Shown here: positions 957 to 26,547 of the stretch, piece after piece
Layout of the letters: every line of letters starts with the position of its first letter
Position numbering within the stretch: position 1 is the first letter of the stretch
Assembly (NCBI GenBank): GCA_963669155.1
Contig: OZ022591.1
Coordinates: forward strand, 17,571,153 to 17,635,152
Direction: 5' to 3'
Source of the DNA: Arbacia lixula
Taxonomy: Eukaryota > Echinodermata > Echinoidea > Arbacioida > Arbaciidae
DNA: 64,000 nt
Program-made: the position numbers and the translations under genes
The notes under the pieces: generated by a model
What the model saw: only the letters and a program-made list of their open reading frames with translations
What the model was told of the DNA's origin: nothing
Database searches by the model: none

Positions 957-1049
957 TGACGTGCCCTGATGTGATGTGCTTCTTGTATTGTGAGCACGGG
1001 TATAAACAAGATAAAGGATGCGATACGTGTGAATGCAATGCCCAAACAG
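957..1049 (+). CDS. Exon 1 (visible): antistasin-like domain
   Basis: The acceptor is TTCTTCAG|TG and the donor CAG|GTATGT, both in phase 1, 93 nt. It encodes [10 protein letters not shown] followed by GCDTCEC, giving all six core cysteines. The loop before GC is one residue shorter (D-K-G-C) than in sister exons (D-x-x-G-C). Confidence 0.85.
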
Positions 1050-2729
1050 GTATGTCATCAGGATGTCCATATTCAAACATTAATCGAAATGAATTATAGT
1101 AGTAGTAATCATCATTTCATTGATTTATTTTTCTCAGCCCCCTGGCAACTATCTTTGCTGACTTTTTGCGTTACCCTTCTTTTAATACTAACCCACGGCC
1201 AATAACGTTGATGTTACATATATTTGTTTCGGTGCGTTACTGCATTTATTTGTTATCATATACAATGCTCTGCAATCCAATCAAAAAGACTACATGTCAA
1301 TAAAAAAATGGCTTTAATCACAGAGAATGAATGATAAATAAGGTGAAAGAATTTCATGTATGCTCAAACTGGTAAAAAAATCATTACGTAAATTTTAGGG
1401 CTAAACTAGACATGAAATCACATCTACACTTCAAACTCTTTTAGAATATTTGAAATATTTGGGGTCATCAGACATTCTGAGAAGCTATTGACGATTGAAG
1501 ATGTTTATTGCAAAGCACACAAAGACGTATTGACGCACGCACATATTTTTAACTTTGACGCACCCGCACGACCTTGTTATTGCATGAACACGGCTCAAAA
1601 TGATATGATCTGATGTATGTAATGTGAGTATAAACAGTAATTCTGTGAAAAAAAACCGGAATCCTGGCGTTGGGTTTTCATTACGCACGGAAAAACGTGC
1701 CAAATTTTGGAAATGCTTGAAATGGCATGAAACAAAAATCAGCTTCTAGTTGATTTTGAGCAAATTTTAAATTTTGCGCACGCGTTAATGCACCAACATT
1801 CTATTACGCACGCTTTTTAAATATTGAAATTTATTGTCTTGTCATTAACTTAATGTCAAATTTCATGAGCTATAATGTAATGACCTGGAAATCTAGGAAT
1901 TAATAGGTTCACATTAATACCCATACTGAACAAAAATTGATAAAACATGGCACATGCATTGTTGAGATATAGATGACACAAAAAAGTGGGGGTCATGGTA
2001 TAGTAATAAACAATTCTAACAAAATTAAGAGGTGATCTGTCAATCATGAGAGACCAATTAATAAAGAAAATTGTAACGAAATTAAGAGGTGATCTGTCAT
2101 TCACGATAGGCCACCTTAATATTGATAAGGGCAAGATACTTATGTCGATGACGATTTAACTCGTTCTTTTTATAGAGATCCACGCCGGAGAGTGCCCGCT
2201 GATTCCAGAGGAGCAGGTCGGCATTTGCATTTCCACCTGTGACCATGATGGCGGCTGTCCAGCCAATCAGAAGTGCTGCTTCAATGGGTGTGGTCGCACC
2301 TGCGTGGAAGCTGTTAGCGCAGGTATGTTCTTCATCTTAATTATCTGCGTTATTTTGTTCGGCCGTGGGTGGCGCGGTTCATCAAACAACATTAAAACAA
2401 AACAAAGGCTTGCGTATATGTACACGTTTTAAAATCGAGTAAATACCTGTGCTTTCGTGTCATTCACAATGTTCAGTTACGTGCAATATATTTCCATGGT
2501 AACCATCAAGCTACAATGAGAAAGTCTAAAATCTACTAACCTTCCGTGAAATAGCCTCGGTTATGGGCAGTGAAGTCTTTTTTTTGTAATGGGAAACATA
2601 CAGATTTGTCTTGCCGACAGGTGACCACATTCAACCGATTGGTTATCAGTAATAGACTAACCTGACTAATATACAAAGATGTAAGAACACTGTGAACATT
2701 AACCTTCTCCTGCCTCTCCCAAGTCCTCT

Positions 2730-2776
<47 letters not shown>

Positions 2777-2779
2777 TCC

Positions 2780-2837
<58 letters not shown>

Positions 2838-5667
2838 ACTCTCTCTCTCTTCGTCTCTCTTTTTCGATCTCGACATTCCGCCCTCCATCCTACTCCTTAT
2901 ACAGTGAATCGGCAGCGCTCGCTCGTTCTATAGAAATCGTGAGCGTTTTATTTTTCGTCTCGCGAAATCTCACGCGCAGATTTTGCTGCACCTAGATTAT
3001 GAAAGAATTCGACATGCTCGCGAGATCTTTTGCTGGTGTCTTCTGTAAGCATACTGATCAGGATTTTTTTAGAATGGGATTGAGATTATATGTTTCTTAA
3101 TAAATATTTTTAGTTCTTTTCGAAATCCGCAAAGGAGTTTTTATGTTATTTGCCTTCAAAAACAGGCCTCATTTTGAAGTATGTAAGCTCTCAGACCTTG
3201 CTGGATCCTGACCCTTCTATGGATTGTACGGCAATGACAGTTACGGCTCTAAAAAGCCAATACTTCAGCGGAGATTCTGATTCCAATATTGTTTGGGCTC
3301 AAAAATAAAACATTTGTGCTATTCGTCTTCAAAGTGACGCGAGATTTCAGAAATCGTACGGACTTCGCAACCGATATATATGTAAGCTCTCAGACTTTGC
3401 TAGATCCTGACCCTTCTACAAATTGGACGGCAGCACCATTTACAGCTCTGGAAAGCCAAGACTCCAGCGGAGAATTTGATACCACTTTTGTTTGGGCTCA
3501 AATATAACACATTTGTGCTGTTCGTCTTCAAAGTGATGCGAATTTTCAGAAATCATACGGACTTCGCAACCGATATTCGTCCGCAGGCAGCAGAAAACAC
3601 GCGATTTTATTTTCAGCTCGGTATTCGTTACCTTCACTTGACCTCTCGAACCGCGAAAAAGGTCTCCCTTTCAAACTGCGATATCTCCATGAATATATCA
3701 TATTTTTGTACACTTTCTTTTGTAACTGTATGTTGGGGGTCGACATTTACCAAGGGTAAAAAAACATTTCATTAAAACATGCAGAAAAATATTGTAAATT
3801 CGAGATAAATATGTGGTTCTAATAAAAATAAGAAAAAATTAAATAAACTCTATAATTATTTCAATGTCAATCGCTTTGAGCCCCTAACATTTAGAGATCA
3901 TCTGAAGCGGAATTTATTGTACTTTATGGAGATACCATTATTTTTCAACCTCCCTCCATAGAAGGGTCAGGATCCAGCAAAACATCAACCATGTTCGAAT
4001 CCAAAATGAGCGAGATATGACGAAGTTGTGAGCGATCCTAACCAGCCAATCATAGTCTGCGACCCATAGATCGCCGGTAGAATGTCGTTTTTATCGTGGA
4101 CTATGATTGGCTGGTTAGGATCGTTCACAACTTTGCCATATCTCGCTCATTTTGGATTTGAACATGGTTGATGTTTTGCTGGATCCTGACCCTTCTATGG
4201 GGGGAGGTTGAAAAATAATGGTATCTCCATAAAGTACAATAAATTCCGCTTCAGATGACTTGTAAATGTTAGGGGCTCAAAAGCGATTGACATTGAAATA
4301 TAGAGTTTATCTTATTTTTTTTTAATTTTATTAGAACCACATATTTATCTCGAATTTGCAATATTTTTCTGCCTGTTTTAATGAAATGTTTTTTCACACT
4401 TGGTAAATGTCGACCTCCAACATACAGTTACAAAAGAAAGCGCACGAAAATATGGTATATTCATGAAGATATCGCAGTTTGAAAAGGAGACGTTTTCCGC
4501 GGTTCGAGAGGTCAAGTGAAGGTCACGACGACCTCGCTGAAAATAAAATAAGCGTATTTTCCGGTGCCTGCCATTTGGCTGTATACCCCCTCCTTCTTCC
4601 CAAACACAGCGGAAATTAAGGATGGCGTCTGCCCACTGGTCGACGCCATGCCAGACAATACGTGGGGGATCTGTTCTGACCTGTGCACGAGTGACCAGGA
4701 CTGTAACGGAACGGCAAAGTGTTGCTCTAACGGCTGCGGCCACGTATGCGTGGCGCCAGATACTGGTAAAATAACTATTCGTATTCTTTTTCTTCTTTAT
4801 CTCATTTTCCTTGTTCCTTTTCCTGTACAATTCCTTAATTTTTCCATGTTTTATATATTTCTTCTACTTCTACTTCTCGACATGGAAACGAACGGCACAA
4901 GATAGATCAAAATGGAAAAAATGATGAGGAGGCTCACATCAGCAGTGGAGAGAAGTGGGCTAGATAGATAAATCGATTTAAATTGTTCTTATTAATTTTA
5001 TCCTTTTTGTTCGACTTATTCTCCTTCATCTTCTGCCTCTTCGACTTCCTCATCTTTTTTTCTTCCATTTCTTATTTCATTCCTTCTTCTTCTTTTTCTT
5101 CTTCTTCTTCTTCCTCCTTCTCCTCCTCCTTGAATCCTTATGATTTTGTACCTTCTGTAGTTATGATCCTCGGACGTTTTTCACGTTCTTTCCGTCTTGT
5201 ATCCTCCTGCAACCACTGCTTGCTCAGATATTTTCATCTTTCCTTCCCTCCTCAGACTCCCCTCATTCCGGCCTTAGCTGTCCCATTGGGACCTTGCCCT
5301 TAGGAGCCTCGGGGATCTGCTCAGAAATGTGCTCCCGAGACAGCGAGTGTGGACAGACTCAGAAGTGCTGCTCGAACGGATGTGGGCACGTGTGTGTCGA
5401 TTCTTTTGACATTCACCGTACGTTACCATGCCATTGTGATGTCATTGTAGGGAGATGGGCGGCTTAAGATAAAAACATATGGATATATAAATGTTTGGAT
5501 AAATAGGTAGACGAATAGATAGCTACATGGTAGACGGATAAATAGGTAGATAAAGATAGATTGATAGGTAAATAGACATACAGATAAGTAGATAGATAGA
5601 TGGAAAGATAAACAGACAGATAGAGAAGTAGCTAAATATATACATAAATTATATAGATGGATGAATG

Positions 5668-5714
<47 letters not shown>

Positions 5715-8700
5715 TACCGCGGTAAGGCGAGTATTGATATGATCTCAGATCTACATGCTACGAAATTTGGGCGACCCGCCCAAACTCAAGCTAAAATGTA
5801 ATAATGTCAGTTACAGTTTTCATATTGTGAGGGAAGGTTTCCGTAATAGTTAGCCTACACAAATTTATTTTTGTGACATGAAAAACGGTTTAAAGTGCCC
5901 TTCTACCATTTTTTATTGACTTAAGTTTTGCCAGGAGAGCTTCAGTCATTTCGAATAGCCGTTAGCAAGAATTCCGTGGTGAATTATATAGTAGATACCG
6001 GATCGTATAACGAGTATCTACGTCGCAATTAAGCCGCAACCTCTCTTCTGCTTTCATTCCCCATCATAACTATGCTGTCCCTGTATAGTTTGGAGGCAAT
6101 TCTTTAACATGACATGTATAAAGATTAGAGTCCTATGAAATCGAAATGGAATGGAACACAAAGCTCCCGAGCCAGATTCTGGGACAACTATTAATACCCT
6201 TTGGCATTAGAGATGACATAATGAAGATGAGTATTGTTTTGCATTTATCTCCTCGTTTTGCATTGTACTCTTTACCAGCTCTCTGCAGTGAAAACGTAGC
6301 CTGTCACCAATTCTGCCCATATGGCCACCAGCTGGACGATTACGGTTGTCCGACGTGCTTGTGCGACACTCCGGCCGGCGTCCATCCTGGAACCTGCCCG
6401 ACGGAGATTCTCCCTGATGGGGTATTAGCCACATGTGCCAATCTGTGTGAAAACGATGATGACTGCGCTGACACGCAGAAGTGTTGTTCCAACGGTTGCG
6501 GACACATATGTGTCGATATGGCAGAGCCAACGGACGCAGGTATTAACTCTCTTCTTCTCATGGGCCCTCTAAATCATACGTCGCAGTTCCCTCCAACTTC
6601 ACCACGACACCTCCACCTCCAAATAACCTATTTATTATTAAAGGGGAAGTTCACCCCGAAATTATTTTGGTTTCAATAAAAATAGACAAATGAAAGAAAC
6701 ATATGAGTGAAGATTTGACGAAAATCGGCCGAAGGAAAAACAAGTTTTGATTTTGTGACGTCACATGCGAGGTGCTCTCCCATATGTTGTGTACATTTTT
6801 TTCGAAAATGTGCATTTTCTCACAAAGATATGCATCCTTTTACTTGTGCATTTGATAAATTGTTAGAAATACGTTTTACACATACCTGTACCATGTTATA
6901 TAACAGTCCATTTGGTTGTCATTCAAATAGTGTATATAAACATGTATATATGATGTAATGTCGATATGACAACATGTAGTGATTATGCGGTATTATGGAT
7001 TGATGATATAACTAAATCATCAGAACACCATACTTCATGAAGTCGTGTTTAAACTTTTTTTTACGAATACATTTCACAGCCTCTTGCCCTGAGATGATGT
7101 GTCTTATATGGTGTGAACACGGCTACAAGACCGATCAGAACGGTTGTGACACGTGTGAATGCAACCAGGAGCCAGGTTCGTGACATAACCTATGTGCATG
7201 GCCGTTTCCATGGGGGGGGGGGGGGGACGGTACCTCCCTCCATAACACTATTTTTTTTTTTCTTTTTTAGAAGGGGAAAAATTATTTTGTTTTGATTTTT
7301 TGTTTGTTTGTCCTTTTTTTTTCTTTTTCTTTTTTCTTTTTCTTTCTTTTTTTTTTTTTTTTTTTTTTTTTGGGGGGGGGGGGGGGGAGGCGGGAGGCGT
7401 CGCCGAGGGGGAGAGGGGGGGGGGGGAGGCGGGTCATAGGTTTATTACATGAAGAAATAAAGAGAAACAGAGAAAGAGGACTATTAAGAACGACAAATGA
7501 AAGAAGAGGGGAAACAGAAAGTCTAAAAAAGGAAACATGACATTTCAACGCGATAATGAATAATTAAAAACAAGTGTCTTATACATTGTACATTTCAGTT
7601 GTTGACTAGTTTGCCTTTGCCCCTATCTATGCCACCAGCAGCACGGCCTGACATTGGAATTGGTAAAATTCCTAGCCTAGTTTGTTACTAAAGTGCATGT
7701 AGTTGAATGCACTTTAGTTAGTAACTAGGCTTAGTAAGGTTTCATGAATATGTCCCAAGTGTTCTAAAATTTTTGACGCTTTTAACAAATGATTAAATGA
7801 GTTAAAGTTGAATCGAGCTAAAATTTCAACAACTTTAAGTCAAAGGATGTTATATTTTTTAAGCACGTTTCGTGACATATCGTCAATCATCATTACCAGG
7901 ATATTAGTCAGTGTTGTCTTCTTATTTAATAATTTGATAACTACAGATGTTACCGTCCAAATTTGCCCAAAGTGAAAATCATATTGAATATACAAAGAAT
8001 CATTACATGAATAACAATTGATGGAATGTCACGAATACTGCTTCTAAAGGAATGACATCCTTTGGGTTTATGATGTGTAAATTTCAAAATGATTCCAATC
8101 GTAATTTTGTTTTCAAGTGTCAACAGTTTCGTCTAATATAATGATATAATCAACCATTTATTGTACCTCGTATCAATGTGTTTATCGGATGTAGCTCTTA
8201 CACCCTGTTCGTCAACAATTCGACCTTCGTGCTGCAAAGAATATTTAAATCTTTATCTAACTCTGAATTATTGGAGAGATTACATAACAAATAAATGTAA
8301 TAAAACGAATAGATAACAAGCATAACACAAGTGACCTCATCATCTGCCATGTAACCATGGTAACTTTGTATTGTCTGATTCGCTCGTTACTGGGTCTGTT
8401 CACACGTTCCTCGGTCTATTCGCACGCTGCTGGATCTGGTCCGTTCACACTTTGCTGTGTCTGCTATTAGCTTCATGTGCCGCAGTTATGTGCAACCGCT
8501 TCTGTCTGTATGGAAACCAGATTGACAAGCGGGGATGTCCGATCTGTGCCTGCCGTGATAAACCGGGTAAGTCCGGATTTGGTCTATCCAACACCGTCTT
8601 AAGAGTATGGATTATCCGACTTGCATCGTTTGGAAAGCTATCAGCGTCATAAATCAATCACAACAATAATCCAATATGACTCGTCAATCATGAGAGATTA

Positions 8701-11700
8701 ACTGATAGATAGATAGGAATAGATTAATAGGAATCGGTACATTCCTAGTACAAAATTTATTCCAATTCCATTTTGTTTATTGCGAAATACTTATTATTTC
8801 CTCTATGAGCAAACAATACACCACATCCCATTTTCAAATACCAATTAAAGTGTCAATAATTTCAGATCCAAATCAACTTTCATTCAATTGGGGATTAAAT
8901 CCGTATTATTGTTTTTCTTAATACTCATACAAAATAAAAAGTACTTCACACATTGTTTTAAACTTTATGTTCTTGATCTCAGTTAATACTTGTAGCATGT
9001 TGGCCTATATCAAACTTGGAATTATCGTTGAGTGGGGAGCATTGGATTTACTAGGAATCACTTGAAGGGGATTTAATTTCTTTTGGAATGGGACTCTGGA
9101 AATGATGTGTTTTCTGTCACCTGCAATGTAAGTGGGTCCTATCATTATCTTTTTGTTATCAATTGATTGCGTAGATTTTTGCGCCAAAGTCACACTCAGC
9201 AGCACGGATTGTCCGAACGGATTTGCAAGGAGCTCCAGCGGCTGTCCCACCACCTGCGTTCCCATTGAAAGAGGTGACTATTCGTGATTAGTCGAAATAA
9301 GTAACTACTCGATACAAGTCAAATGATGCAGACAGAAACGTGGCTATTCGTGACAAGGTGATTACTCGATTGGTCTAGACGGGTGATTAGGATAGATACG
9401 TCTCATCGTTGTCAGGAGGTGACTATATTTTTGATAAGTTCACTAGTCCAGACAGGAGACTTGTTGTGATAAATCAGAAATGTAGACGTCAAGGTTACCT
9501 CGAGATAAGCTGATTCGTCAAGATGGGTGCCTAGTCGAGATAAGCCAAATACTGGTGACTAGTCGAGTCAGGCTAGTCAGGTGCATAGTCGGTATGAATA
9601 ATCTTAAAAAGATAGATTGCCGGATTAGTACGCATACAGGTGACTAGTTGAGACAAGTCGACCAATAAGGGTAGGTGATAAGAAGAGATACTTGGACAGT
9701 CGAGAAGGTGATTAGTTGAGCGTGTTGAATGCATTTATTGAAACAGGTATAGTCATAATAGTTCTCGGAATGACTAGTCAAAATATGTCGAATAAGCGAT
9801 TAGCTATAGGCGACTCGTCGGGTGACGTCGAGTAATTGAGTAAGTGACTTGTTGGGTAGTGAATCTCATCGAGCCCCGATAAATTTACTGATCAATTCAT
9901 ATCAGTCGACTAGTGGCATCAAACAGCAATTCGTAATTTTGACTAATGACGACATAATTGTGACTAATTGGGATTAGTCGATATATCCAGACTAATCGAG
10001 GTGATTAGTACAGGATATCGTATGAACAAAGCTTTTGAGTATGATCTAATACGCCCTGATAAGACATGCTAATATACTCTCTCCTTTGTGTGCACATACA
10101 TAGAAATACGCCCAGGGATATGCCCATCTGTGGTTGTTTCTGACGAAGACGTTGGAACGTGCGCAAATCACTGCGATAATGACAATCAGTGCCCGACCAA
10201 TACGAAGTGCTGTTTTAACGGGTGCGGCTACTCCTGTGTTCCTGATGGCGTACACCGTAAGTCTCCGTCGGCGCCGTCACTGGATAGAAATGCCTTTTGC
10301 AGTAGTCGGATGTGCGACCAGGACCCCGTTGCATAAAACTTACCATTGGTCGTAACTCTGCCATTAATGATAACGGCCAATGAGATTTGAGGTTTGCATA
10401 GAAATTGCTGTTGGTAGCAAAGTTACCATCAATGGTAAGTTTTATGCAACAGGGCCCAAACATATAGGCGTACAAGACAACGCGTGTAAAACACAGATGA
10501 GATCGTGAGAGAGAGAGGGCGAGTGTTTATTTCTGTGTTAGTATGCGAATGCGTGTTTAAACATGTATGTGTTTGTGTGTGTTTGTGTGTGTGTGTTTGT
10601 GTATGTGTGCGTACGAGAGAGAGAGATGGTTAGAGGTGGGAAAGAGTGAAGGAATGATGAACTTAATGGAAAGAGCGAGGCAGGGAGATTTTGCATAAAG
10701 ATATTATTGTTGATAGTTGTCAGTATATTGGAAGACTTAAACATGAAAATCATCACAATCAAGAGAAAGTATGTTGGAAGCAAATGGGAGATGGTTCCAT
10801 CTACCTCTATTGCAGCCTAGGTGCTAGACTGTGAGGTGCGTGAACACAGCCCAGTCTGTTAACAACTATGTCTGGCAACACAGACTATGCCCCAATCCCA
10901 TCCTCAGCTTCAGGAGCTATGACGTCATTAGGGCGTAGTCTGTGTTATCAGGCATAGTTGTGGACAGGTTGTGTCCATGCACCTCACAGCCTAGTACCTA
11001 GGCTACCTCTATTATCGTGTTCCACGCGATCAAGGTTGTACATTTAAGTTCCAATGAAACGTGCTTTCTTCTTCTTTAACTTCCCGATACATTATAGATT
11101 GCCCAGATGTGATGTGCATGCAATACTGCCCTCATGGTTTCAAACGCGACAGGGATGGGTGCTCAATATGCGAATGTAATACGCAATCAGGTAAGCGTCA
11201 AATTATTTTCCCTGTGTGCTCGTTCAAGCATTTTTTTTTTGTTTAAATACTGTGGTAAAGCACTTTAATTCAATTCGTTATTCATTTTACAAACAAAAAT
11301 AAACAATTTTCATGAACGATGAATATGAGGCATCACCAGAAAATCAATGGCTTGTGAGGTGTTATGACCTTTAACATGTGGTTCAATACACATGAAATAT
11401 TATAGTCCATTATTCAAATGATAGACAGCAAGATGAACCAAAGTACACAAATTACATAAAAATACGTACTTAAAAAAAATATATTAAAGAAAAACTTATA
11501 CAAGCAAGCATAAACACAAAACAAAACAAAAAGCAAAAATGATTAGCAGCTAAAACAAAAATCAACAAAGTAAACAATATGTCACTTCAAAGTGTCAAAT
11601 ATAATGGGCCTGTACCTTTATATATGTATACTCCTTCCCACGCCTCGTGGGCAACTCGAATTAAAACAAAATATGTGACTACGCACCATCACCCAAGCAA

Positions 11701-17700: not shown

Positions 17701-20700
17701 CACTTTTGGACAGATTTGGACGTGTGTATCAGATAATTAATTCAGAACACAAGAATGACCATTGTGTATCACACCTGTCAATCCACTATCACCTGCCATC
17801 ACAATGTCAATAATAATGTATGATGCCTTAGGCAGAAAAGAAGTTAAGGATTGATATGCGTCATGAACGCTGGCTATTTTCGCTGGTCGTTTTCAGACTA
17901 AATTATGTGAAACACACAATTTTTACATTGAAATGTGTCCTAAATTGAAAATCTCATGAAATGTTCACAGGATTATTCTTAGAAAAGTATTTCATGGGAT
18001 ATCACAAAACCTGCTTCGAAAAAATTTACATCCCTGACTTTATGATGTGTCAATGTTAGCTTGATTCGAGTCGGGACTTATTTCTAATTATCTGTCAAGT
18101 GTCAAAAGTTTGTTTTAATACCTAGTAGTGCGAATAAAAACGGTAACATTGTGATAAAATAGACCATTTCGTTATGTATGCAAATGTAATTCACGTGGTT
18201 CAAACAATACGTTAAATGTGATATTCATAGAAAATCCAAAAATATGAAGATATTCGTCTACACAAGGCTTATAAGCCATACAATGAGCTCGGATGACATT
18301 CAAACAATATATCACTTTCCAAAAAGCGAAATTAGGGTGAAAACAGTCACCGTATTCTCGGGGACAAATTTGCCCTACTGTCATCCGAAACGGCCTTTAT
18401 AATAGGTCTGACGTAAGAAAAGGGAGGCGTGATTGTGCATGAAACATGCCAATCCGCAGCTTCTTTTCCGCCAGAAGCATCATGCATTGTTAATGAAACT
18501 GTGATGACATTTGCGAGTGGATTAACAGGTGTGATACACAATGGTCATTGTGAAGCGTATCCCGGCTGTGACGTACACACTAGGCCGCTTTCCCTGAGGC
18601 GATTTCGTAGGTCAGGAAGATTTTACTTTCATTTAACAAAAAACTGAACACTTTCATGACATGTTAGCTGCATAAATTGCTTTAATAACTCATTCAATTA
18701 TAAAATAAACTATATTTATTTGATTTTATTTCCTATGAATATCACCTTTAACAATGGTAGCCCCAAAGCTTGTCCGAGGTTTGTCCGAATGACAACAACT
18801 AATCGATTCACAGCGCGTGCCATCCGTTGAAAATTAATCACAGAATACAGGTGAATATAATCACTAGTCACTTAGGGGGGAAGAACTGGGAATACATTAC
18901 AAAAACGGCCCATTGATGAATGTTTACATTCGTCCGTAGGCAAAGGAAGCATATAGACGTACATTTAATGAACATCTTTTATTTTGCTTATAACGTCTAC
19001 TTAACGGACACTACTCTGGGTTCAGTTTTATAAAGATATTATGTAATTCATCGCAGCTTACCATACGATTAATATCAATTGTGTTATTCTTCACATCAGA
19101 GGTAGGGAATCGGACTTACACATCCATCACAAATCTTTATATAAGAAATTATATATAAGAAATTACATATAAGAAATTATATATAACAAATTATATATAA
19201 GAAATTACATATGATAAATTACATATAACAAATTATATATTAGAAATTACATAAGAAATTATATGTAACAAATTATATATAAGAAATTACAAATAAGAAA
19301 TTATATATAACAAATTATATACAAGAAATTATATATAAGAAATTATATAAATGAAATTATGCATTTATATTTGTATCACTAGGTTCTTGCCCGGAAGTGA
19401 TGTGCCTCATATTTTGCGAGCATGGAACAGTGCGAGACGAGAACGGCTGCAATACGTGTTTATGTAACCCTGCACCAGGTAAAGAACGCATGTATCTGTT
19501 TACCGTGAACCCTTTTTTTATCATTCTCTACCCCAAGTATTTTCACTCTTTCTCTCTCCTTTTCTTATTCCCATCTCGTATTGTCGTACGAATAAGTGTA
19601 TGTGTGTGTATGTGTGTATGTGTGTGTGTGTGTGTATGTGTGGGTGTCTGTGTGTATCTGTGTGTGTGTGATTGTGTGTCTGTGTGTGTGAGTTTATGCA
19701 TGTTGTGTGTGATTATGTATATTACCTTCATAGCACTGTTTTCCCATAAATGTATCTGATTATTGTTGTTTATCATTATACATGACATTTTATATGCAAA
19801 GGGACACTACCGTAAGCAGATTTTCTTCTTAGGGGTTAACAACATTATTTAATGTATGTAAAGCTGTTGTATTTTTATGTTGTTTTCATTATGGTTAAAT
19901 GAATATATGAAATGAACAAAATCCGTTGTGTGCGACATACCTTGCTGGTCTTCGGACTTTGTTTACATTATATCTGTCAAAACGCAACCGTGGCGGATAA
20001 AAGTTTAACTCAATCATCCCCATTCACCACAAGCAGATGGTAAATTTGATATATAGTATTAACCATTTCAAAAGATGCATCAACATAAAAGAGCACATAT
20101 TTTTGTTCAATGTGACCCTATTACTGTCGCTTAAATGTACATGTATCACATAATTATGTAATGGTATTAAAATGCTAATTCAAATACACTCCACTCTCCT
20201 CCCGTTAACCATATTAAACGTGGTTAAACTGTTAAAGGTACTTATCGTTTCTCCGACTCTGTTACGTAACTTGAATATCCTCTCTTTTCTCTTAAGTCAC
20301 GTGCCCACCAATCATGTGTAACATGTTCTGCGAGCATGGATTCAGCACCGACAAACAGGGATGTGATATTTGCCAATGCAACCCCGCACGTAAGTATTTT
20401 TTCATGTATCATTTGTAATGTTATTATAACTTTCATTATGATTTATCGTTATTGCTATTATTTTCATTATAATTATTGTTATTAGTATTATCAATATGAT
20501 CATCATCATGTTTTTGTATTATTATAAGTCTTGTCATTATTATCGTTATCATTGATATAATTTGTTTATTTTATTATCATTTTCATTTTGATTTCGGGCC
20601 CGCCCTTAACGGTGGCCCGAGGGTCATTGGTCACCTAAAACGGCCGTCGGGTCAGTTGAAACTCTTATATCGGTGTAAACCAATTGAAACCATGAGGCAC

Positions 20701-21520
20701 GGAAATATGAATAAACGATGTTTCGTTAGGTTGCAACCATTCATAAAGACTATACGAGCACTCGCATAATTTACATGTCATGCTATTTAAGTCAGGTTTG
20801 ACTAGAAGTAGTTAAGTACTCATTGCTCTAATACGGTAAACCAAATATACATCATACATTAATTCTTTCAGTGTGCTTCCTGTCTTCACTCTGCAGTTAA
20901 ACCTTCCTACGAATTTCCCTGTTTATACAGACCATTCGCGGTTTGCCTGTGATAATGTGTCTGTCTATAAAGACTTCCTGTCCAAAAAAAAATCGGTTTG
21001 AATAAAAAAAAATGATAATTGTACAAATCTTTCCGTGTAACTTTTGCATTTTTGCACCGTTACTACACATATCCCTAAAGGACGGCATTCGGTCTAGCAG
21101 AGAAAGGGTTATGCCTGTCTTAACCCTTTGTGGACCAGACCAACTGCTGCCTTATGGGATTTGTGTGTAATACTTGTAGAAAGTGGCACACATGACATAC
21201 ACAGTGATAATGGAAGAATTGATAATGTTTTATTTTTCTATAATTGCTCTTGCAGCCGTCTGCCAAGAGGTAATGTGCGACATGTACTGTCCTTCTGGTT
21301 TTCTGTTCAACGAACATGGTTGCCAAATCTGTACTTGTTACGAACCACCAGGTAGAAGTTTGGTCATTTTCTTCTCCTTCTTTTTTTGCTGTTTTCTTAT
21401 GTTTTCGTCTCCGTCGTTGTCCCCTTATCTCATTTCTGCTTCTGCCTTTGTTTCTCTTTCTTCTTCATCGTCTTTTTTTTATTACTGTTCGAATTTATTT
21501 CTCCTCCTCGTTCTTCGTCA

Positions 21521-21552
<32 letters not shown>

Positions 21553-24500
21553 TTCATCTTCTCCTTCTTCATCATCTTCTTTCTCTTCTTCATCATCATC
21601 TTCTTCTTCTTCTTCTTCTCTTTCTTCTCTTTTTTCTTATTTTCTTCATCTTCTCTTTCTTCTTTGTTTTCTTCTTATCCCCTTCTCCTTCCTCATCATG
21701 TTCCTTTTATTCCTTTCCCTATTTTTTTCTTCACCATGTTTACTTTCTTCTTTTTCTTCTCCTTCTCTGTCTCCTCGTTTTTTCTTCTTCTTCTCCCGTT
21801 CACCTTCCTCATCATCTTCCTTTTATTCCTCTCCCTATTTTACTTCTTCACCATGTTCAATTTCTTCTTCGTCTTCTCCTTCTTGAATTTGTTTTCATTC
21901 TTTTTCTTCTTCTCCGTCTGCTCATGTGTTTCCACATCCTGCCTCTTCTGCATTCTTATCTTTTCTCTTCTTCCTTTCATATCATGCTTATTCTTTGAGC
22001 ACATTTCTTCGCTCTGACCTTTCTCTGGTAAACTATTACTATGGTTGCACCCCTCATAACTATCTTACCTTCAGTGATTTTTTCTCAAAGATTAGGAAGC
22101 TCTAATCATAGCGACAAATCTAAGCCTCACAGCAATTTTACTTTTCAATCTTACACTTGTTTTACGGGTTTTTTTTCAAAGAACTATAACATTGGACGAA
22201 AAATCGTTAATTGACTTCACGATATATAATGAGAGACAGTGTTACTATGTTAGAATTGATTGAAATCTCAATTTGATCTTTTATTCTCTAATACAGCATC
22301 TAATGGTTATTAAACATGGGAATAAAATGAATCAGAGAACACATGAAAGCAATGTGATGAATGTAAAATTAGAGTGCCCTTTTCTTTCATCTTTTACCTC
22401 ACTGAATTGAGTTTATTTCCGTACAACACTTTATAAGCACAGTGATTGTGTTTTCAGTTTTTTTTTTTTTTTTTTTGATATTACTATCATGGTTATCATT
22501 CGTTATCGATAGTGGTGCATCCGGGCTCTTGCCCAATGAGTCTGGGCGGTATGGGCGTGTGTGTTCAGGACTGCGCTGACGACGGTGACTGTTCAACCAA
22601 TCAGAAGTGCTGTTCTAACGGCTGCGGTCACGTGTGCATGGAAGCCGAACTAGAGTCGCGTGAGTAAAGGATTTATACTTATTTTTTATTTTTATACTGC
22701 TAACGGCGATCGGCCACATGACATTAGTCACGTAGTTAAGAAATCTGGGCCAACATGTACTATATTCGTGTATTAAGCACGGCAGTGTGTGATTATTCTC
22801 ACTTTGTTATCCTAAACAAGTATTCAGAATATAATTTAAAAGTACAACCTTGCTTTTTATGTTAGCTTAATAATAAAAAATACAATTTTTTTTTTTTTTT
22901 AAATTAAAAGGATCTGTGTAAGCAAAGCCGGTATGCTACGTCAAGAACATAGACACACGATCTATTTAGCATCTCAACATATTTTTTTTTTTCAAAATGC
23001 TCATCACAACATGATAAATCCTAAGGCATCAAGCAATGCAAAAAAAATCATGAAACTTATAAAGCTTTGATTCCATCTTTTTTTTAATACACAGCTAAGA
23101 CCGGTGTATGTCCCGCCATGCGCGATGACGTCGTCGGCGTGTGCGCAGAACTGTGCAGAAGCGACAGTCAGTGCGCAGGGGAACAGAAGTGCTGTTCCAA
23201 TGGTTGTGGTTTATCCTGCATGGATCCGGGTGAGTAGTACTGTCGTTTTTAACCACTCGAATGCCCCTGTCATCACTTCCATGTACTAGTTATGCACACA
23301 CCATTTGAAATAGCTCCGAATTGGTTAAATGGTTGTATTGAGCACAAACCGGCCACTCTAACCTGAAGGCTCATGTGCACCTGCAAAATATATAGTCGTA
23401 CGGTGAAGCATTTTTTTCACATTTCTGCTGGTAACTGGTTCTAATTGTAATGATTATATTATCATTAAACTAAAATATACACACGGTTTACTGGTTTTCA
23501 ATCTATGATATGTGTGTCAGTGTTATCATGGAAATTACAAATCACATTCGCATTAATTACAACTATGATATAAACAAAAGTATATACTACGCATGTATTA
23601 AAGGGGAAAAGGTAATATCAATTAAGCGTATGAATAACTTTTTGAACATTTTTTAACAGTTTGTATTATGCTCTCAAGCTGTCCGTCCGTCCATCCGTCC
23701 CTGATCCGTTTTTTTACAATGGAAAGCAAATGAATTGTCCAATTTAAAGTAGAGGTAGGACAGAGAATAGATCACTTTACATCTAGAATTTACGAAAGTG
23801 GCCCAAAATTTTTATTGTTGGCAATGATAACTCAATAGTTCAATTTCAACAAAAAAGTGGTACAAAAATAGATCATTACATGGAAATAGACTGGTGAGAT
23901 GTAACGTAAAATTTATCAGAGTTTACAAGAAATTAAATTTTGCAACAACAAATTCTTATATTTGCAATAATTATTGATTATTTGATTCTCCAATGTCGAT
24001 TTGAACCAGATCGGCGGCTAACACTATGATATATATATATATTCATCGACCGTGTCACATTCGAATTTCCCTAGTTTAGACCATTTTTCTGTCTTATACA
24101 TGTACATGTATATAGACCCCATGCCGAAACCGGGCACATGCCCGAGTGCATCGAGCAAAGATAACGTCGGGATCTGCGTCAACGAATGCGAGGACGATCA
24201 CAGCTGCACGGCCGACTACAAGTGTTGTCATAATGGATGCGGTATGACTTGCGTCTCCCCAGAACCAGGTATGACGCTTACACCTAGCCTATCATTCAGG
24301 CTCTGTGACATTTTTATTTTTATGTTTATTTTTTGTTTTAGATTATGAACAGTTAAATGTCTGTCTTTAGTAGAATATTTTGCGCTCTAGTTTCTCAGCT
24401 CGAGCACGCCCAAAACAGATCCAAAATAGAGTGATATAAGGGGAATTGATTTAGCCTTGTCAGTATCCGAATTTCTTTTATGGCTGATTGAATATGTGGA

Positions 24501-25904
24501 ACAGACTGGAAGCCAGATTACTTTATAATTTTTAGGTAGGTAGAAGAACAGAACACAGAACATTGTGTCGCAAAGGGTTCAAACGGGAATTCATTGATTC
24601 CTTGTGCAGTGACCAAACCTGGAGAGTGCCCGGCCGTCTCATCCAAGACGTTAATTCATTCAACCATTCACTCAATCATTCATTCATTCAATCAATCATT
24701 CATTTATCTATTATTCATTGAATGGTCCCATGTGATCATGCAATCATCCATCCATTCAATTAATCTTACATTCATTCATTCATTATGTCAACCTATCATA
24801 TAATCATTCATTCATTTATTCATTCATCCATTCATTCATTCATTCACGCAATCATTTAGTCGTGTATTAAAACGGGCATTCCTTAATTCCTCGCGCAGTG
24901 ACCAAACCCGGAAAGTGCCCGGCCGTTTCGCCCAAGACGATGGGTCTGTGTGTGGAGGACTGCCGGGGAGATGAGGGATGTCCCAACAACTTTAAATGCT
25001 GCTCCAACGGCTGTGGCCACGTCTGCATCGACCCGACTCATGGTAACTTAAAAGGAGTAGTTCACCCTGGAGATAAGTTGGTTTCAGTCAAAGCAAAGAC
25101 ATACAAGAATGTTGATACAGGTTCGACGAAAATCCGTCAAAGAATAAGAATGTTATGATCTTTTGAAATTTCAATTTTGTGACGTCACATGCGAGGTGCT
25201 CTCCCGTATGTTGTATGCTGTATGTTTCCATAAAATGTTTTTTTTTCTCTCTCTTATTGACAATGGATATTTTTTTCATGGCGGAATGGGGGTAAAAACG
25301 TGTTTCTAACCATGTATCAAATGTATCAAAATTGACATTTTCAAACAAAATTGTACAAAATATAATGGGAGAGCACCGCGCACCCGACGTCACAATATTA
25401 TGATTCTGAAGGATCTTAACTTTCTTATCCTTAGATGGATTTTCATCAAACCTTCACTAATATGTGTCTGCTTTTATTGAAACCAATTTAATTTCTGGGT
25501 AAACTATTCCTTTGACGACATATTTTTCACAGCCATAATCTTGATGATAGTAGTCGACGATAAATTATTACTTAATGCGTTTTAAAGCATATGAAGCACT
25601 TTTTCAGGAGAACGCATACAATGAAATACACTCCTAGAAACAAATTACGATAAAAATGATAATGGTAATGGAAAATGAGAAAGTAGAAGAGGAATAAAAT
25701 AAGTTGATAGGATAGCATTTATTAAGTAGAAGCAGTAACACCCTAACACACTTGTTATCATGTGAAAACTAATTGCATTATCTCCTCATTCATCCTCATG
25801 CCCTGACCTTTTTTGAGAACGCTGAGAATCAAATACAATTCTTTGAAAAGTATTTAAAAAACATAACGATGTAATAGTGTTAGTATTAATGATGACGATG
25901 AAGA

Positions 25905-25967
<63 letters not shown>

Positions 25968-26094
25968 CAGTAGTAGCAGTAGGTAGTAGTCGTAGCAGTG
26001 GCAGTAGTAGAATTGGAAAGTACAAGCAATATGAACATGATAAATAGTAGAAATAGCGTAGAAAACGCACACCTGTCCCCAACCCCCCCCCCTC

Positions 26095-26130
<36 letters not shown>

Positions 26131-26547
26131 TCCCTCTCTCTCTCTCTCTCTCTCTCTCACCCTCTCCCCCTCTCTCTCTCTCTCTCTATATCTCTTTCTC
26201 TCTCTCTCTCTCTCTTGCTCTGTCTGTCTCTATATCTCTCTCTCTTGTCTCTCTTTCTTTTGCTCTGTCTGTCTCTCTCTGTCTCTTTCTCTCTCTATCT
26301 CTCCCTCTCCCTCCCTTCCTCCCTCCCTCACACACACACACACACACACGCGCGCACACACACACGCACACACACACACACACACACACATCTCGCTCTT
26401 CTTTGTTCTTATCACTTCTCCTTTCTTCCATCCTAACAAACAGCTGCAGGAGACTTGGACACCAGGTCCCATGGTCGGATCATCTCTCCCCTTTCGGCCC
26501 TTATCATCCTTCTCACGGCACTGGCTCTCTCCTTAGCACAAGGATGA
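957..26547 (+). CDS. Multi-domain antistasin/WAP protease-inhibitor-like protein, GPI-anchored (5' end missing)
   Basis: This is a 23-exon partial gene whose joined exons (listed separately) give 2975 nt, about 990 residues and a TGA stop. Every internal intron is phase 1 with AG/GT borders, so modules can be shuffled without breaking the frame. Domain order is A, W, W, W, A-W (one exon), A, A, degenerate A, W, A, W, W, A, W, A, A, A, A, W, W, W, W, tail, where A is antistasin-like (C-x4-C-x3-C-x2-G...GC-x2-C-x-C) and W is a WAP four-disulfide core (8 Cys, KCC...NGCG). Both families are known serine-protease inhibitors, and WAP domains can also be antimicrobial. The last exon adds a hydrophobic C-terminus, so surface attachment by GPI is inferred. 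No signal peptide is visible, so the start lies upstream of the window. Inhibitory activity against a particular protease cannot be read from the sequence. Confidence 0.9.
1050..2175 (+). other. Intron: no gene seen
   Basis: AT-rich intron. A 17-nt phrase, AAATTAAGAGGTGATCTGT, occurs twice about 60 bases apart near 2022 and 2079, so there is a small tandem duplication around 2000-2110. No exon, RNA gene or long inverted repeat was recognised. Confidence 0.5.
2176..2322 (+). CDS. Exon 2: WAP domain
   Basis: The acceptor is TTTTTATAG|AG and the donor GCAG|GTATGT, 147 nt, phase 1 at both ends. All eight WAP cysteines are present (GEC, GIC, STC, GGC, KCC, NGC, RTC). This exon is close in length and sequence to exon 11, which also follows an antistasin exon; the pair may be a duplicated cassette. 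Confidence 0.9.
2728..2860 (+). repeat. (TC)n microsatellite with poly-C core
   Basis: Long TC dinucleotide runs flank a C homopolymer at about 2779-2790. Open frames on both strands here are artefacts. Confidence 0.95.
3180..3578 (+). repeat. Two tandem copies of a ~199-bp unit
   Basis: The unit starts GTAAGCTCTCAGAC at about 3182 and again at about 3382, and each copy ends with a shared phrase GGACTTCGCAACCGATAT. The copies differ by scattered substitutions. Each contains GATCCTGACCCTTCTA, a phrase that also occurs in both arms of the foldback element that follows. Confidence 0.85.
3585..4567. mobile_element. Foldback (long inverted repeat) element
   Basis: The left arm (about 3585-4055) and right arm (about 4095-4567) are imperfect reverse complements over roughly 470 bases, with a spacer of only about 40 bases around 4056-4095. 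Matching landmarks include ATGATTGGCTGGTTAGGATC near the centre and AGAACCACATATTTATCTCG further out. There is no coding capacity, so this is probably a non-autonomous element. Its right end lies about 42 bases before the exon 3 acceptor. Confidence 0.85.
4610..4765 (+). CDS. Exon 3: WAP domain
   Basis: The acceptor is CAAACACAG|CG and the donor ACTG|GTAAAA, 156 nt, phase 1. All eight cysteines are present (GVC, GIC, DLC, QDC, KCC, NGC, HVC). The inter-cysteine segment DCNGTAKCC contains an N-G-T glycosylation sequon. The loop between the first two cysteines is longer than in most sister domains. Confidence 0.9.
5256..5417 (+). CDS. Exon 4: WAP domain
   Basis: The acceptor is CCTCCTCAG|AC and the donor CACC|GTACGT, 162 nt, phase 1. 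It encodes a complete WAP core (SCP, GIC, EMC, SEC, KCC, NGC, HVC). It has an unusually long lead of about nine residues before the first cysteine. Confidence 0.85.
5480..5715 (+). repeat. GATA-type microsatellite, degenerate then pure
   Basis: A degenerate GATA/TAGA field runs from about 5480 and becomes a pure (GATA)n array at about 5668-5715, within an intron. Confidence 0.9.
6279..6539 (+). CDS. Exon 5: antistasin and WAP domains in one exon
   Basis: The acceptor is TTTACCAG|CT and the donor GCAG|GTATTA, 261 nt (87 codons), phase 1. An antistasin-like core ([18 protein letters not shown]) is followed, without an intron, by a complete WAP domain (GTC, ATC, NLC, DDC, KCC, NGC, HIC). It is the only visible exon carrying two modules, which suggests loss of one intron or retention of an ancestral cassette. 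The AG at 6288 was rejected as acceptor because it would shift the phase. Confidence 0.9.
6640..6960 (+). mobile_element. TTAAAGGG-type MITE, partial copy
   Basis: It begins TTAAAGGGGAAGTTCACCCC and continues with the family landmarks GACGAAAATCGGCCGAAGGA and TGTGACGTCACATGCGAGG. Only the left half is present. Fuller copies lie at 15860, 16850, 25046 and 42290. Confidence 0.75.
7080..7175 (+). CDS. Exon 6: antistasin-like domain
   Basis: The acceptor is ATTTCACAG|CC and the donor CCAG|GTTCGT, 96 nt, phase 1. Six cysteines lie in the order CPEMMC, IWC, GCDTCEC. The donor GTTCGT is the weakest in this gene. Confidence 0.85.
7203..7436 (+). repeat. Poly-G / poly-T / poly-G low-complexity block
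   Basis: A run of about 14 G at 7204-7217 and long T-rich tracts at 7250-7371 are followed by a second G run of about 16 (7372-7387) and G-rich sequence to about 7436. Homopolymer lengths may be assembly-sensitive. Open frames here are artefacts. Confidence 0.9.
7673..7742. repeat. Short perfect-arm hairpin
   Basis: GTTACTAAAGTGCAT at 7684-7698 faces its near-complement ATGCACTTTAGTTAGTAAC at 7708-7726, with further flanking pairing (CCTAGCCTAG / CTAGGCTTAG). It is probably a tiny MITE. The rest of this intron (7743-8470) shows no exon; part of it resembles the foldback element at 17555. Confidence 0.7.
8471..8566 (+). CDS. Exon 7: antistasin-like domain
   Basis: The acceptor is TGCTATTAG|CT and the donor CCGG|GTAAGT, 96 nt, phase 1. 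The core [17 protein letters not shown] has all six cysteines. Confidence 0.88.
9175..9273 (+). CDS. Exon 8: degenerate antistasin-like exon
   Basis: The acceptor is ATTGCGTAG|AT and the donor GAGAG|GTGACT, 99 nt, phase 1 at both ends and open throughout. It keeps CPNGF and GCPTTCVP but has only four cysteines; the usual second N-terminal cysteine and final C-x-C pattern are missing. It therefore fits the exon grammar but not a standard six-cysteine core. It could be a divergent functional module or a decaying exon. Transcript evidence would decide. Confidence 0.55.
9274..10020 (+). repeat. Degenerate minisatellite, GTGACTAGTCGAGATAAG-like units
   Basis: Irregular variants of GTGACTAGTCGA, GATAAGTCGA and GTGATTAG recur across about 750 bases with variable spacing. 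The field starts at the exon 8 donor itself, whose GTGACT is a unit start, and ends about 80 bases before exon 9. Confidence 0.8.
10104..10256 (+). CDS. Exon 9: WAP domain
   Basis: The acceptor is CATACATAG|AA and the donor CACC|GTAAGT, 153 nt, phase 1. All eight cysteines are present (GIC, GTC, NHC, NQC, KCC, NGC, YSC). Confidence 0.9.
10322..10456. mobile_element. ~135-bp palindromic MITE
   Basis: The left end GTTGCATAAAACTTACCATT is the near reverse complement of the right end AATGGTAAGTTTTATGCAAC, with further pairing inward. There is no coding potential. Confidence 0.85.
10815..11003. mobile_element. ~190-bp palindromic MITE, copy 1
   Basis: The ends GCCTAGGTGCTAGACTGTGA and TCACAGCCTAGTACCTAGGC are inverted repeats, and inner blocks CACAGACTATGCCC / GGGCGTAGTCTGTG pair as well. 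A second copy lies at 16650-16844. Confidence 0.88.
11098..11190 (+). CDS. Exon 10: antistasin-like domain
   Basis: The acceptor is ATACATTATAG|AT and the donor TCAG|GTAAGC, 93 nt, phase 1. The core [17 protein letters not shown] is complete and is the closest relative of exon 1. Confidence 0.88.
11191..12641 (+). other. Intron: no gene seen
   Basis: AT-rich intron of about 1.45 kb with A-rich stretches around 11470-11580. No exon, inverted repeat or RNA gene was recognised. Confidence 0.5.
12642..12788 (+). CDS. Exon 11: WAP domain
   Basis: The acceptor is CCAATAATAG|TT and the donor TCAG|GTGAGC, 147 nt, phase 1. Eight cysteines are present (GAC, GIC, EMC, GNC, KCC, NGC, HAC). The segment [10 protein letters not shown] includes an N-C-S sequon of the rarely used type, with the Asn followed by a framework cysteine. 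Confidence 0.9.
12789..15168 (+). other. Long intron (2.4 kb) with an antisense exon-like segment
   Basis: I see no sense-strand exon here. The 13100-13400 part shares the phrase TTCATAGAAAATCCAAAAATAT with 18222 onwards, so repeats are present. An antisense acidic open segment lies at 14375-14706 and is listed separately. Confidence 0.5.
14375..14706 (-). pseudogene. Acidic first-exon-like segment with an early stop, antisense in an intron
   Basis: On the minus strand an ATG at 14706 is followed three codons later by TAG, after which the frame stays open for over 100 codons and ends at a good donor, TTG|GTATGT, in phase 2. The translation is strongly acidic (for example [26 protein letters not shown]) and ends ...NSTENW. 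It looks like the N-terminal exon of an intron-containing gene whose start was hit by a nonsense change, or a transposon-borne exon. I could not find a matching second exon down to 13500. Family is unknown; a resemblance to P2X7-C-terminal-like proteins common in invertebrates is only a guess. Confidence 0.35.
15169..15333 (+). CDS. Exon 12: WAP domain
   Basis: The acceptor is TGACAATAG|TC and the donor ACGG|GTAATT, 165 nt, phase 1. Eight cysteines are present (GEC, GVC, EAC, SDC, RCC, NGC, HTC), with Arg replacing the usual Lys before CC. It is longer than average because of an eleven-residue tail after the last cysteine. Confidence 0.9.
15365..15580 (+). repeat. Interspersed repeat, copy 1 of 3
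   Basis: The landmarks CCCGAGGTTTGTTCGACTAG, ATACATGTGAATGTAA and CACGTTACTAGGCAGTTAG recur with variation at about 18725-18935 and 37545-37750. Family unknown. Confidence 0.7.
15699..15794 (+). CDS. Exon 13: antistasin-like domain
   Basis: The acceptor is AAACGCAG|GG and the donor CTGG|GTAAGT, 96 nt, phase 1. The core [17 protein letters not shown] is complete. Confidence 0.88.
15860..16331. mobile_element. TTAAAGGG-type MITE, full palindromic copy
   Basis: The left end TTAAAGGGATAGTTCACCCT pairs with the right end CAGGGTGAACTATTTC. Inner landmarks also mirror each other: CTCTCCCATATGTTGTGTAC against CACAATCTATGGGAGAGCG, and ACGTGACGTC against GACGTCAC. There is no coding potential. The TTAA at the outer edge is compatible with a piggyBac-type target preference, which is inference. 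Confidence 0.88.
16453..16599 (+). CDS. Exon 14: WAP domain
   Basis: The acceptor is TTTTTAAACAG|TC and the donor GCGC|GTGAGT, 147 nt, phase 1. Eight cysteines are present (GTC, GIC, DLC, RSC, KCC, NGC, HEC). It begins VHPGTCP, very like the WAP half of exon 5 and exon 19. Confidence 0.9.
16650..16844. mobile_element. ~190-bp palindromic MITE, copy 2
   Basis: It has the same family as 10815-11003: terminal AGGCTGTAAGGTGCATGGAC against GTCCATGCACCTCACAGCCT, with the inner CACAGACTACGCCC paired to its complement. Confidence 0.88.
16850..17335. mobile_element. TTAAAGGG-type MITE, diverged palindromic copy
   Basis: Family landmarks CCATATGTTGTGTAC (left) and ACACAACATGTGGAAGAGC (right) mirror each other. 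The right end GGGTGAGTTATCCCTTTAA keeps the TTAA edge. It ends about 30 bases before the exon 15 acceptor. Confidence 0.82.
17365..17460 (+). CDS. Exon 15: antistasin-like domain
   Basis: The acceptor is TAACCGTAG|CG and the donor CCAG|GTAGGC, 96 nt, phase 1. The core [18 protein letters not shown] is complete, with one extra residue between the first two cysteines. Confidence 0.88.
17555..18115. mobile_element. Foldback element (~560 bp)
   Basis: The left arm phrases GAAACAGGTTTCGTGATAT and CAAGCTGAAATTGACAC are mirrored in the right arm as ATATCACAAAACCTGCTTC and GTGTCAATGTTAGCTTG. The arms are diverged, so the element is old. Related single-arm sequence is at about 7750-7960. Confidence 0.75.
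18725..18935 (+). repeat. Interspersed repeat, copy 2 of 3
   Basis: It is related to 15365-15580: GTCCGAGGTTTGTCCGA, ATACAGGTGAATATAA and GTCACTTAGGGGG are the matching landmarks. The remainder of the 17461-19382 intron has no visible exon. Confidence 0.7.
19137..19360 (+). repeat. AT-rich minisatellite (TATATAAGAAATTA-like, ~14 bp)
   Basis: About 15 units alternate between AAGAAATTATATAT and ACAAATTATATAT forms. It ends about 20 bases before the exon 16 acceptor and replaces any normal polypyrimidine tract there. Confidence 0.92.
19383..19478 (+). CDS. Exon 16: antistasin-like domain
   Basis: The acceptor is TTGTATCACTAG|GT and the donor CCAG|GTAAAG, 96 nt, phase 1. The core [17 protein letters not shown] is complete. 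Confidence 0.88.
19597..19710 (+). repeat. (TG)n-rich microsatellite
   Basis: Imperfect GTGT dinucleotide repeats. Apparent Cys/Val-rich reading frames across it are artefacts. Confidence 0.9.
20297..20389 (+). CDS. Exon 17: antistasin-like domain
   Basis: The acceptor is TTTCTCTTAAG|TC and the donor GCAC|GTAAGT, 93 nt, phase 1. The core [17 protein letters not shown] is complete. Confidence 0.88.
20390..21255 (+). other. Intron: no gene seen
   Basis: An ATTATT-rich low-complexity stretch at about 20410-20590 is followed by ordinary sequence with no recognised feature. Confidence 0.5.
21256..21351 (+). CDS. Exon 18: antistasin-like domain
   Basis: The acceptor is TGCTCTTGCAG|CC and the donor CCAG|GTAGAA, 96 nt, phase 1. 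The core [17 protein letters not shown] is complete. The open frame continues far past the donor only because the intron is pyrimidine-rich and lacks stops. Confidence 0.88.
21360..22010 (+). repeat. 650-bp polypyrimidine (TTC/TCT/CTTCT) tract
   Basis: It is almost purely C and T on the + strand, with TTC-type repeats densest at about 21500-21680. Long open frames in all three + frames (Ser/Phe/Leu-rich) are artefacts of this composition. Confidence 0.92.
22513..22659 (+). CDS. Exon 19: WAP domain
   Basis: The acceptor is TTATCGATAG|TG and the donor TCGC|GTGAGT, 147 nt, phase 1. Eight cysteines are present (GSC, GVC, QDC, GDC, KCC, NGC, HVC). A T homopolymer at about 22459-22476 precedes it. 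Confidence 0.9.
23095..23229 (+). CDS. Exon 20: WAP domain
   Basis: The acceptor is TTAATACACAG|CT and the donor CCGG|GTGAGT, 135 nt, phase 1. It is the shortest WAP exon but keeps all eight cysteines (GVC, GVC, ELC, SQC, KCC, NGC, LSC). The usual GH before the last cysteine region is GL. Confidence 0.9.
23230..24115 (+). other. Intron: no gene seen
   Basis: AT-rich intron with no recognised exon, RNA gene or strong inverted repeat. A short (TA)n run is at about 24029-24041. Confidence 0.5.
24116..24268 (+). CDS. Exon 21: WAP domain
   Basis: The acceptor is ATGTATATAG|AC and the donor CCAG|GTATGA, 153 nt, phase 1. Eight cysteines are present (GTC, GIC, NEC, HSC, KCC, NGC, MTC). His replaces the usual Ser or Phe after KCC. 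Confidence 0.9.
24610..24650 (+). pseudogene. Truncated WAP pseudo-exon
   Basis: After an intact acceptor (CTTGTGCAG|TG) the sequence encodes [13 protein letters not shown], nearly the same as the start of exon 22 ([13 protein letters not shown]), then breaks off into an ATTC microsatellite. The match extends upstream through the acceptor (AACGGGAATTC against AACGGGCATTC). There is no donor and seven of the eight cysteines are missing, so it is a broken duplicate of exon 22. Confidence 0.85.
24651..24850 (+). repeat. (ATTC)n-rich microsatellite
   Basis: Imperfect ATTC, TCATTC and CAATCATT units fill the space between the pseudo-exon and exon 22. Confidence 0.92.
24899..25042 (+). CDS. Exon 22: WAP domain
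   Basis: The acceptor is CCTCGCGCAG|TG and the donor CATG|GTAACT, 144 nt, phase 1. Eight cysteines are present (GKC, GLC, EDC, EGC, KCC, NGC, HVC). It is the last domain before the C-terminal tail exon. Confidence 0.9.
25046..25515. mobile_element. TTAAAGGG-type MITE, full palindromic copy
   Basis: The left end TTAAAAGGAGTAGTTCACCC faces the right end GGGTAAACTATTCCTTTG. Inner blocks GTGACGTCACATGCGAGGTG and GACGTCAC mirror each other. It starts within five bases of the exon 22 donor, so the donor now abuts the element. Confidence 0.88.
25903..25990 (+). repeat. (AGT)n microsatellite
   Basis: About 27 AGT or AGC-variant units. Threonine- and leucine-rich antisense frames are artefacts. Confidence 0.95.
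26051..26442 (+). repeat. TC/CA low-complexity block, source copy of a duplicated segment
   Basis: It begins AAATAGCGTAGAAAACGC, continues through about 230 bases of TC repeats and 60 bases of CA repeats, and ends TCCTAACAAACA directly against the last-exon acceptor. It is nearly identical to 28835-29222, differing by about 4 bases in TC length. Confidence 0.95.
26444..26547 (+). CDS. Exon 23: C-terminal tail with GPI-anchor-type signal
   Basis: The acceptor is CTAACAAACAG|CT, phase 1, with TGA at 26545-26547. It encodes about 34 residues: a polar start ([11 protein letters not shown]) with small residues suited to an omega site, then a hydrophobic stretch, [20 protein letters not shown], running to the stop. 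There are no basic residues after it, which fits GPI attachment better than a transmembrane anchor. This is inference from composition. A second AG at 26448 would break the phase. Confidence 0.8.

Follow-up and report, generated by a model that had tools for sequence, protein, structure and literature searches.

A predicted acidic array of WAP and antistasin modules with a GPI-like tail in the genome of Arbacia lixula

Our study analyzed a 64,000-nucleotide stretch of the Arbacia lixula genome (GCA_963669155.1, contig OZ022591.1, positions 17,571,153 to 17,635,152 of the forward strand), referred to here as the window. Its + strand carries, between positions 957 and 25042, 12 WAP and 10 antistasin modules, together with a degenerate antistasin exon at 9175-9273. 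The modules are distributed over 21 phase-1/1 exons, one of which fuses an antistasin with a WAP module, and the degenerate exon comes in addition to these; the exon borders are AG/GT with phase 1 on both sides, and all exons lie on a common strand. They are given below, with WAP modules numbered W1 to W12 and antistasin modules A1 to A10; the residue listed for each antistasin module is its assumed P1, placed directly behind the second cysteine of the module in accordance with the leech inhibitors.

957..1049, +, exon, antistasin A1; assumed P1 F; upstream exon(s) probably outside the window
2176..2322, +, exon, WAP W1; pattern, splice borders, profile
4610..4765, +, exon, WAP W2; pattern, splice borders, profile
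5256..5417, +, exon, WAP W3; pattern, splice borders, profile
6279..6539, +, exon, antistasin A2 and WAP W4 without an intron between them; assumed P1 H; Pfam matches to both families
7080..7175, +, exon, antistasin A3; assumed P1 L; donor GTTCGT
8471..8566, +, exon, antistasin A4; assumed P1 N
9175..9273, +, candidate degenerate antistasin exon; 4 instead of 6 cysteines; phase 1/1
10104..10256, +, exon, WAP W5; pattern, splice borders, profile
11098..11190, +, exon, antistasin A5; assumed P1 M
12642..12788, +, exon, WAP W6; pattern, splice borders, profile
15169..15333, +, exon, WAP W7; pattern, splice borders, profile
15699..15794, +, exon, antistasin A6; assumed P1 Q
16453..16599, +, exon, WAP W8; pattern, splice borders, profile
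17365..17460, +, exon, antistasin A7; assumed P1 M
19383..19478, +, exon, antistasin A8; assumed P1 L
20297..20389, +, exon, antistasin A9; assumed P1 N
21256..21351, +, exon, antistasin A10; assumed P1 D
22513..22659, +, exon, WAP W9; pattern, splice borders, profile
23095..23229, +, exon, WAP W10; pattern, splice borders, profile
24116..24268, +, exon, WAP W11; pattern, splice borders, profile
24899..25042, +, exon, WAP W12; pattern, splice borders, profile
26444..26547, +, terminal exon, GPI-signal-like tail and TGA stop; an alternative in-frame acceptor gives a start at 26450

The pattern search returned 12 WAP and 10 antistasin cores, every one on the + strand between 962 and 25026, and the eight-cysteine WAP pattern is present in all 12 WAP modules. 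On the joined model of 957 amino acids, with stretches counted at E up to 0.1, the Pfam family PF00095 matches 12 stretches (E=9.6e-105 and 343.1 bits for the whole protein) and PF02822 matches 10 (E=7.3e-48 and 161.1 bits for the whole protein), both far above the cut-offs of their families, and the degenerate module by itself reaches 23.5 bits against the PF02822 cut-off of 21.2 despite its 4 cysteines. These results bear out the initial annotation, which had counted at least 22 domains (12 WAP, 10 antistasin plus a degenerate one) and had proposed these two Pfam families for the domain check. The same annotation had described the two module types as alternating; this is not strictly so, since the order found is A W W W A-W A A d W A W W A W A A A A W W W W, where d is the degenerate module and A-W the shared exon. 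In addition, profiles built from the same 22 modules, and hence circular for those 22, were searched against the six frames of the window: the weakest of the 22 modules scores E=5.4e-14 and the best other match E=0.0071, a value reached by the degenerate segment 9132-9284 under the WAP profile, where the antistasin profile gives it 0.013, and by a minus-strand stretch under the antistasin profile. The best score in the shuffled control, one mononucleotide-shuffled window, was E=0.58. With these profiles, the six-frame search found nothing comparable to the 22 modules elsewhere in the window. It is important to note that the Pfam result is independent of the self-built profiles.

Counted per site, the copies differ mainly by synonymous change. 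Comparison of the 12 WAP cores gives pS 0.905 and pN 0.289 (pN/pS 0.32), and that of nine of the 10 antistasin cores (all but A1, which is one residue shorter) gives pS 0.959 and pN 0.336 (pN/pS 0.35). Synonymous sites are thus close to saturation and the protein pattern has been preserved, a picture that fits old duplicates selected at the protein level. In the trees built for the two module types, none of the 9 and none of the 7 inner branches is starred, so that no fork is well supported, and simple duplication of neighbours is one candidate origin of the array.

When the 22 exons are joined, they give 957 residues with no internal stops and a final TGA; with the degenerate exon, the 23 exons give 990 residues and the frame remains open. 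A phase-1 acceptor and a phase-1 donor are both present around 19 of the 22 cores, compared with 6.2% of 5000 random open segments, and the three cores without both signals are A2 and W4, which share an exon, and A3, whose donor is GTTCGT. The segment 6281-6538 matches both Pfam families within one intronless exon. From the continuous frame, we infer that all exons are joined in one mRNA, and the sequence is best read as a single gene with a GPI-like end; the claim of one very large protein thus stands for the frame, the common strand and phase and the A2-W4 exon, and the joining of the remaining exons is its predicted part. We regard as quite improbable that the locus instead comprises several shorter genes or isoforms, with clusters of exons transcribed or spliced separately at the longer introns. 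Such introns do exist (2.3-2.4 kb between W1 and W2 and between W6 and W7, and 1.9 kb between A7 and A8), symmetric phase-1 exons can be skipped with the frame kept, and reading on past 25042 into a retained last intron would end the protein at a stop at 25156-25158. However, all exons share strand and phase, A2 and W4 occupy one exon, and the DNA read through after 25042 is a repeat that occurs elsewhere in the window, so that this tail is not conserved coding DNA and a soluble end made by read-through is disfavored.

Several repeats were observed in and around the gene. The stretches 25043-25513, 15851-16328, 16864-17341, 6638-6885, 42291-42820 and 53745-53907 are similar to one another, occur in both orientations and look like one MITE-like repeat family; the starts of two of the six lie no more than about 60 nt from one of the donor sites in the array gene. 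A 989-nt near-palindrome at 3583-4571 is 89% self-complementary and stops some 38 nt short of exon W2. A short element at 28794-29268 has perfect 45-nt inverted ends, which begin and end in TA, and includes a segment of about 390 nt with 99% identity to 26051-26442 in the last intron of the array gene, a piece that reaches to within one base of the acceptor of the terminal exon; it looks like a small transposon with a captured intron piece, the alternative being an assembly artefact. Elsewhere in the window, the - strand carries a Major facilitator superfamily transporter stretch (PF07690) at 39172-40338 and a second stretch at 43476-43880, which resembles by eye the start of a monocarboxylate-transporter-like gene and has no Pfam match at E up to 0.01, and two long open stretches on the + strand (60389-61765 and 62703-63170) encode C2H2 zinc fingers. 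Rfam gave no match in the whole window at gathering scores and none in 1-27000 at E up to 0.5; a short stretch at about 607-650 that is reminiscent of a hammerhead ribozyme core likewise had no Rfam match at the gathering threshold or at E up to 0.5.

Special attention was given to the two ends of the predicted protein. Within positions 1-956, no ATG frame combines a hydrophobic stretch with a phase-1 donor among the donor types tried, so the start of the gene most likely lies beyond the window, probably upstream of it. An ATG at 911 runs directly into A1 with a short hydrophobic stretch; we consider it less likely as a start, because hydrophobic residues are what the translation of a pyrimidine tract tends to give and because the A1 acceptor lies 5 nt before the first cysteine codon, the same distance as in 8 of the 9 other antistasin modules (2 nt in A5, from the exon coordinates). 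The statement that the protein is built only from the two module types consequently applies to the part within the window, and additional domains are possible upstream of it. At the other end, the terminal exon encodes 12 residues, two of which depend on the choice of acceptor, followed by a hydrophobic end. This tail begins AAGD and contains a small-residue site, a hydrophilic spacer and a C-terminal hydrophobic tail with a peak mean hydropathy of 2.97 over 11 residues. A filter for GPI-like tails, written after the tail had been seen, was passed by this one alone among 852 acceptor candidates with a pyrimidine tract in the window (385 on the + strand and 467 on the - strand), and again by no other among 15 candidates within 25043-28100. 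The proposed GPI-like C-terminal signal is therefore upheld by the features of the tail ending at 26547, with a filter set post hoc, and they suggest that the predicted protein is probably GPI-attached.

The predicted protein has a mass of about 101 kDa, a pI of 4.41 and 16.3% Cys, and its 156 cysteines would form up to 78 disulfides if all of them pair. It contains 44 K+R against 128 D+E, and the net charge is negative in 11 of the 12 WAP modules, the twelfth being neutral, and in nine of the 10 antistasin modules, with A4 at +3. This strong acidity counts against a cationic antimicrobial surface of waprin-like modules, one of the roles suggested initially, which we consider highly improbable despite the similarity of W8 to nawaprin and omwaprin and the antimicrobial role ascribed to some WAP proteins in the literature.

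The spacing of cysteines in the WAP modules bears on their function. The inhibitory loop of elafin is the stretch after its second cysteine, and elafin has 8 residues between its second and third cysteines, whereas all 12 WAP modules of the array have 3, and none shows the elafin/SLPI-type arrangement. The best matches of W8 among solved structures are 1udk (E 9.6e-07), 1zlg (1.5e-05) and 3ngg (0.0033), with elafin at 0.013, and the waprins and the WAP domain of anosmin-1 (1udk, 3ngg, 1zlg) have, in the comparison with W8, the same spacing of 3 residues. Unlike the present array, these proteins have a single such domain or one among others, and the waprins are small and soluble. Based on this spacing, shared with waprins and anosmin and different from that of elafin, the WAP modules may serve as spacers. 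A model of W8, made with an alignment of 11 of the 12 WAP modules (W4 left out), has a pLDDT of 71.7, and a fold search with it ranked omwaprin first, trypsin-bound half-SLPI second and elafin lower, all with E above 0.05; this mixed ranking does not separate waprins from inhibitory WAP domains. The A2-W4 exon modeled by itself gave a poor structure (mean pLDDT 51.2) and was discarded.

In the case of the antistasin modules, the relatives of known structure are antistasin, guamerin, bdellastasin and hirustasin. These leech proteins share the six-cysteine module with the array, and guamerin, with M-I at the assumed P1-P1' positions, is similar to A3 and A8, with L-I; in contrast, the leech domains carry N-terminal cysteines that are missing from the present modules of 30-34 aa. 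The assumed P1 residues from A1 to A10 are F, H, L, N, M, Q, M, L, N and D. None of the 10 is the Lys or Arg of trypsin/factor Xa-type inhibitors, which is a further difference from the leech proteins; five (A1, A3, A5, A7 and A8) are F, L or M, and the other five are polar or acidic (H, N, Q, N, D) and unsuited to canonical inhibition. According to a review (PMC7277884), Y, F, L or M at P1 indicates chymotrypsin-like targets, guamerins inhibit elastases, and the P1 rule is called confirmed for StmAW-SPI, a sea cucumber WAP/antistasin inhibitor. Judging from the assumed P1 residues, about half of the antistasin modules could be inhibitor heads. The earlier idea of a multivalent protease trap is thus possible for the five modules with a hydrophobic P1, and inhibition by all of the approximately 22 domains is weakened by the WAP spacing and by the P1 residues.

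The initial annotation had regarded an array of this size as unusual, which does not agree with previous reports. In the shell matrix of Lottia gigantea, Lotgi1|239125 (about 103 kDa) contains 11 WAP domains in two groups with antistasin domains between them, and Lotgi1|201804 (about 85 kDa) contains 8 WAP domains in three groups separated by antistasin domains (PMC3374290); the former is a major limpet shell-matrix protein, listed with 16% Cys, a pI of 5.62 and 'DS: none' (PMC4094399). As described in the accessible text of these sources, both resemble the present array, in which many modules of the two types lie in one frame and would be joined in one polypeptide, and both differ from it in module order, in their place in the shell matrix and in that no GPI tail is mentioned (PMC3374290, PMC4094399). 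Echinoderm proteins with both module types are also known: the serine protease inhibitors StmAW-SPI of Stichopus monotuberculatus and AW-SPI of a brittle star, the latter raised during wound healing and lowered during regeneration (PMC11310086), for which the consulted descriptions mention no membrane tether, in contrast to the GPI-like tail found here; and Sfp8, a secreted footprint protein of Asterias rubens of 1367 aa with several WAP and antistasin repeats, which also has two FAMeT domains and is expressed in adhesive gland cells (PMC9382459, in part). Those FAMeT domains exemplify the kind of extra domain that might lie upstream of the window. P-vulgata_12, an adhesive protein of a limpet, likewise has WAP and antistasin-like domains (PMC7333891, in part). 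Given the precedents in Lottia, Sfp8 and AW-SPI, neither the module mixture nor its size is new, and the possible GPI tether is the one feature not found described: no account of antistasin-like and WAP domains together with a GPI anchor was found in the literature covered, most subscription journals lying outside its scope. A search of viral contigs with the first 304 of the 957 residues confirmed no relatives.

These precedents give weight to a structural matrix protein, of shell, adhesive, cuticle or egg coat, in which the modules would be disulfide-locked blocks and inhibition incidental or absent. Lotgi1|239125 has 16% Cys and a pI of 5.62, compared with 16.3% and 4.41 predicted here, the footprint protein Sfp8 has both kinds of repeat, the WAP spacing is unlike that of elafin and five of the ten assumed P1 residues do not suit inhibition; the five antistasin modules with a hydrophobic P1 argue against a purely structural protein, and a GPI-like tail would be unexpected in a purely secreted matrix protein. 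We hold this explanation to be a real possibility, though a doubtful one. Our preferred explanation, itself tentative, is an acidic, tethered and disulfide-armoured rod of WAP spacers with a few inhibitor heads. Under this proposal, a single gene would encode a protein of 957 residues or more, secreted and probably GPI-tethered, with 12 WAP and 10 (or 11) short antistasin modules; up to 78 disulfides would stiffen the rod if all the cysteines pair; the WAP modules, with their waprin/anosmin spacing, would be mainly protease-resistant spacers; and A1, A3, A5, A7 and A8 would present substrate-like loops to chymotrypsin-like, perhaps elastase-like, serine proteases. The result would be a robust, acidic coat of the cell surface or matrix that resists proteolysis and inhibits it locally. 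Counted against this explanation is that the related proteins, as far as their sources describe them, sit in shell or adhesive matrices, where any inhibition would be putative. The more specific form, a GPI-anchored, multi-headed trap for proteases of the chymotrypsin/elastase class with antistasin heads on waprin-type spacers, forming a long protease-proof brush on the cell surface, seems to us rather unlikely.

Should the tether prove real, it would bring to the cell membrane an array type that is familiar from shells, glues and inhibitors, and the contrast between antistasin heads that may be competent for inhibition and WAP spacers that may be non-inhibitory would offer a simple and testable division of labour.
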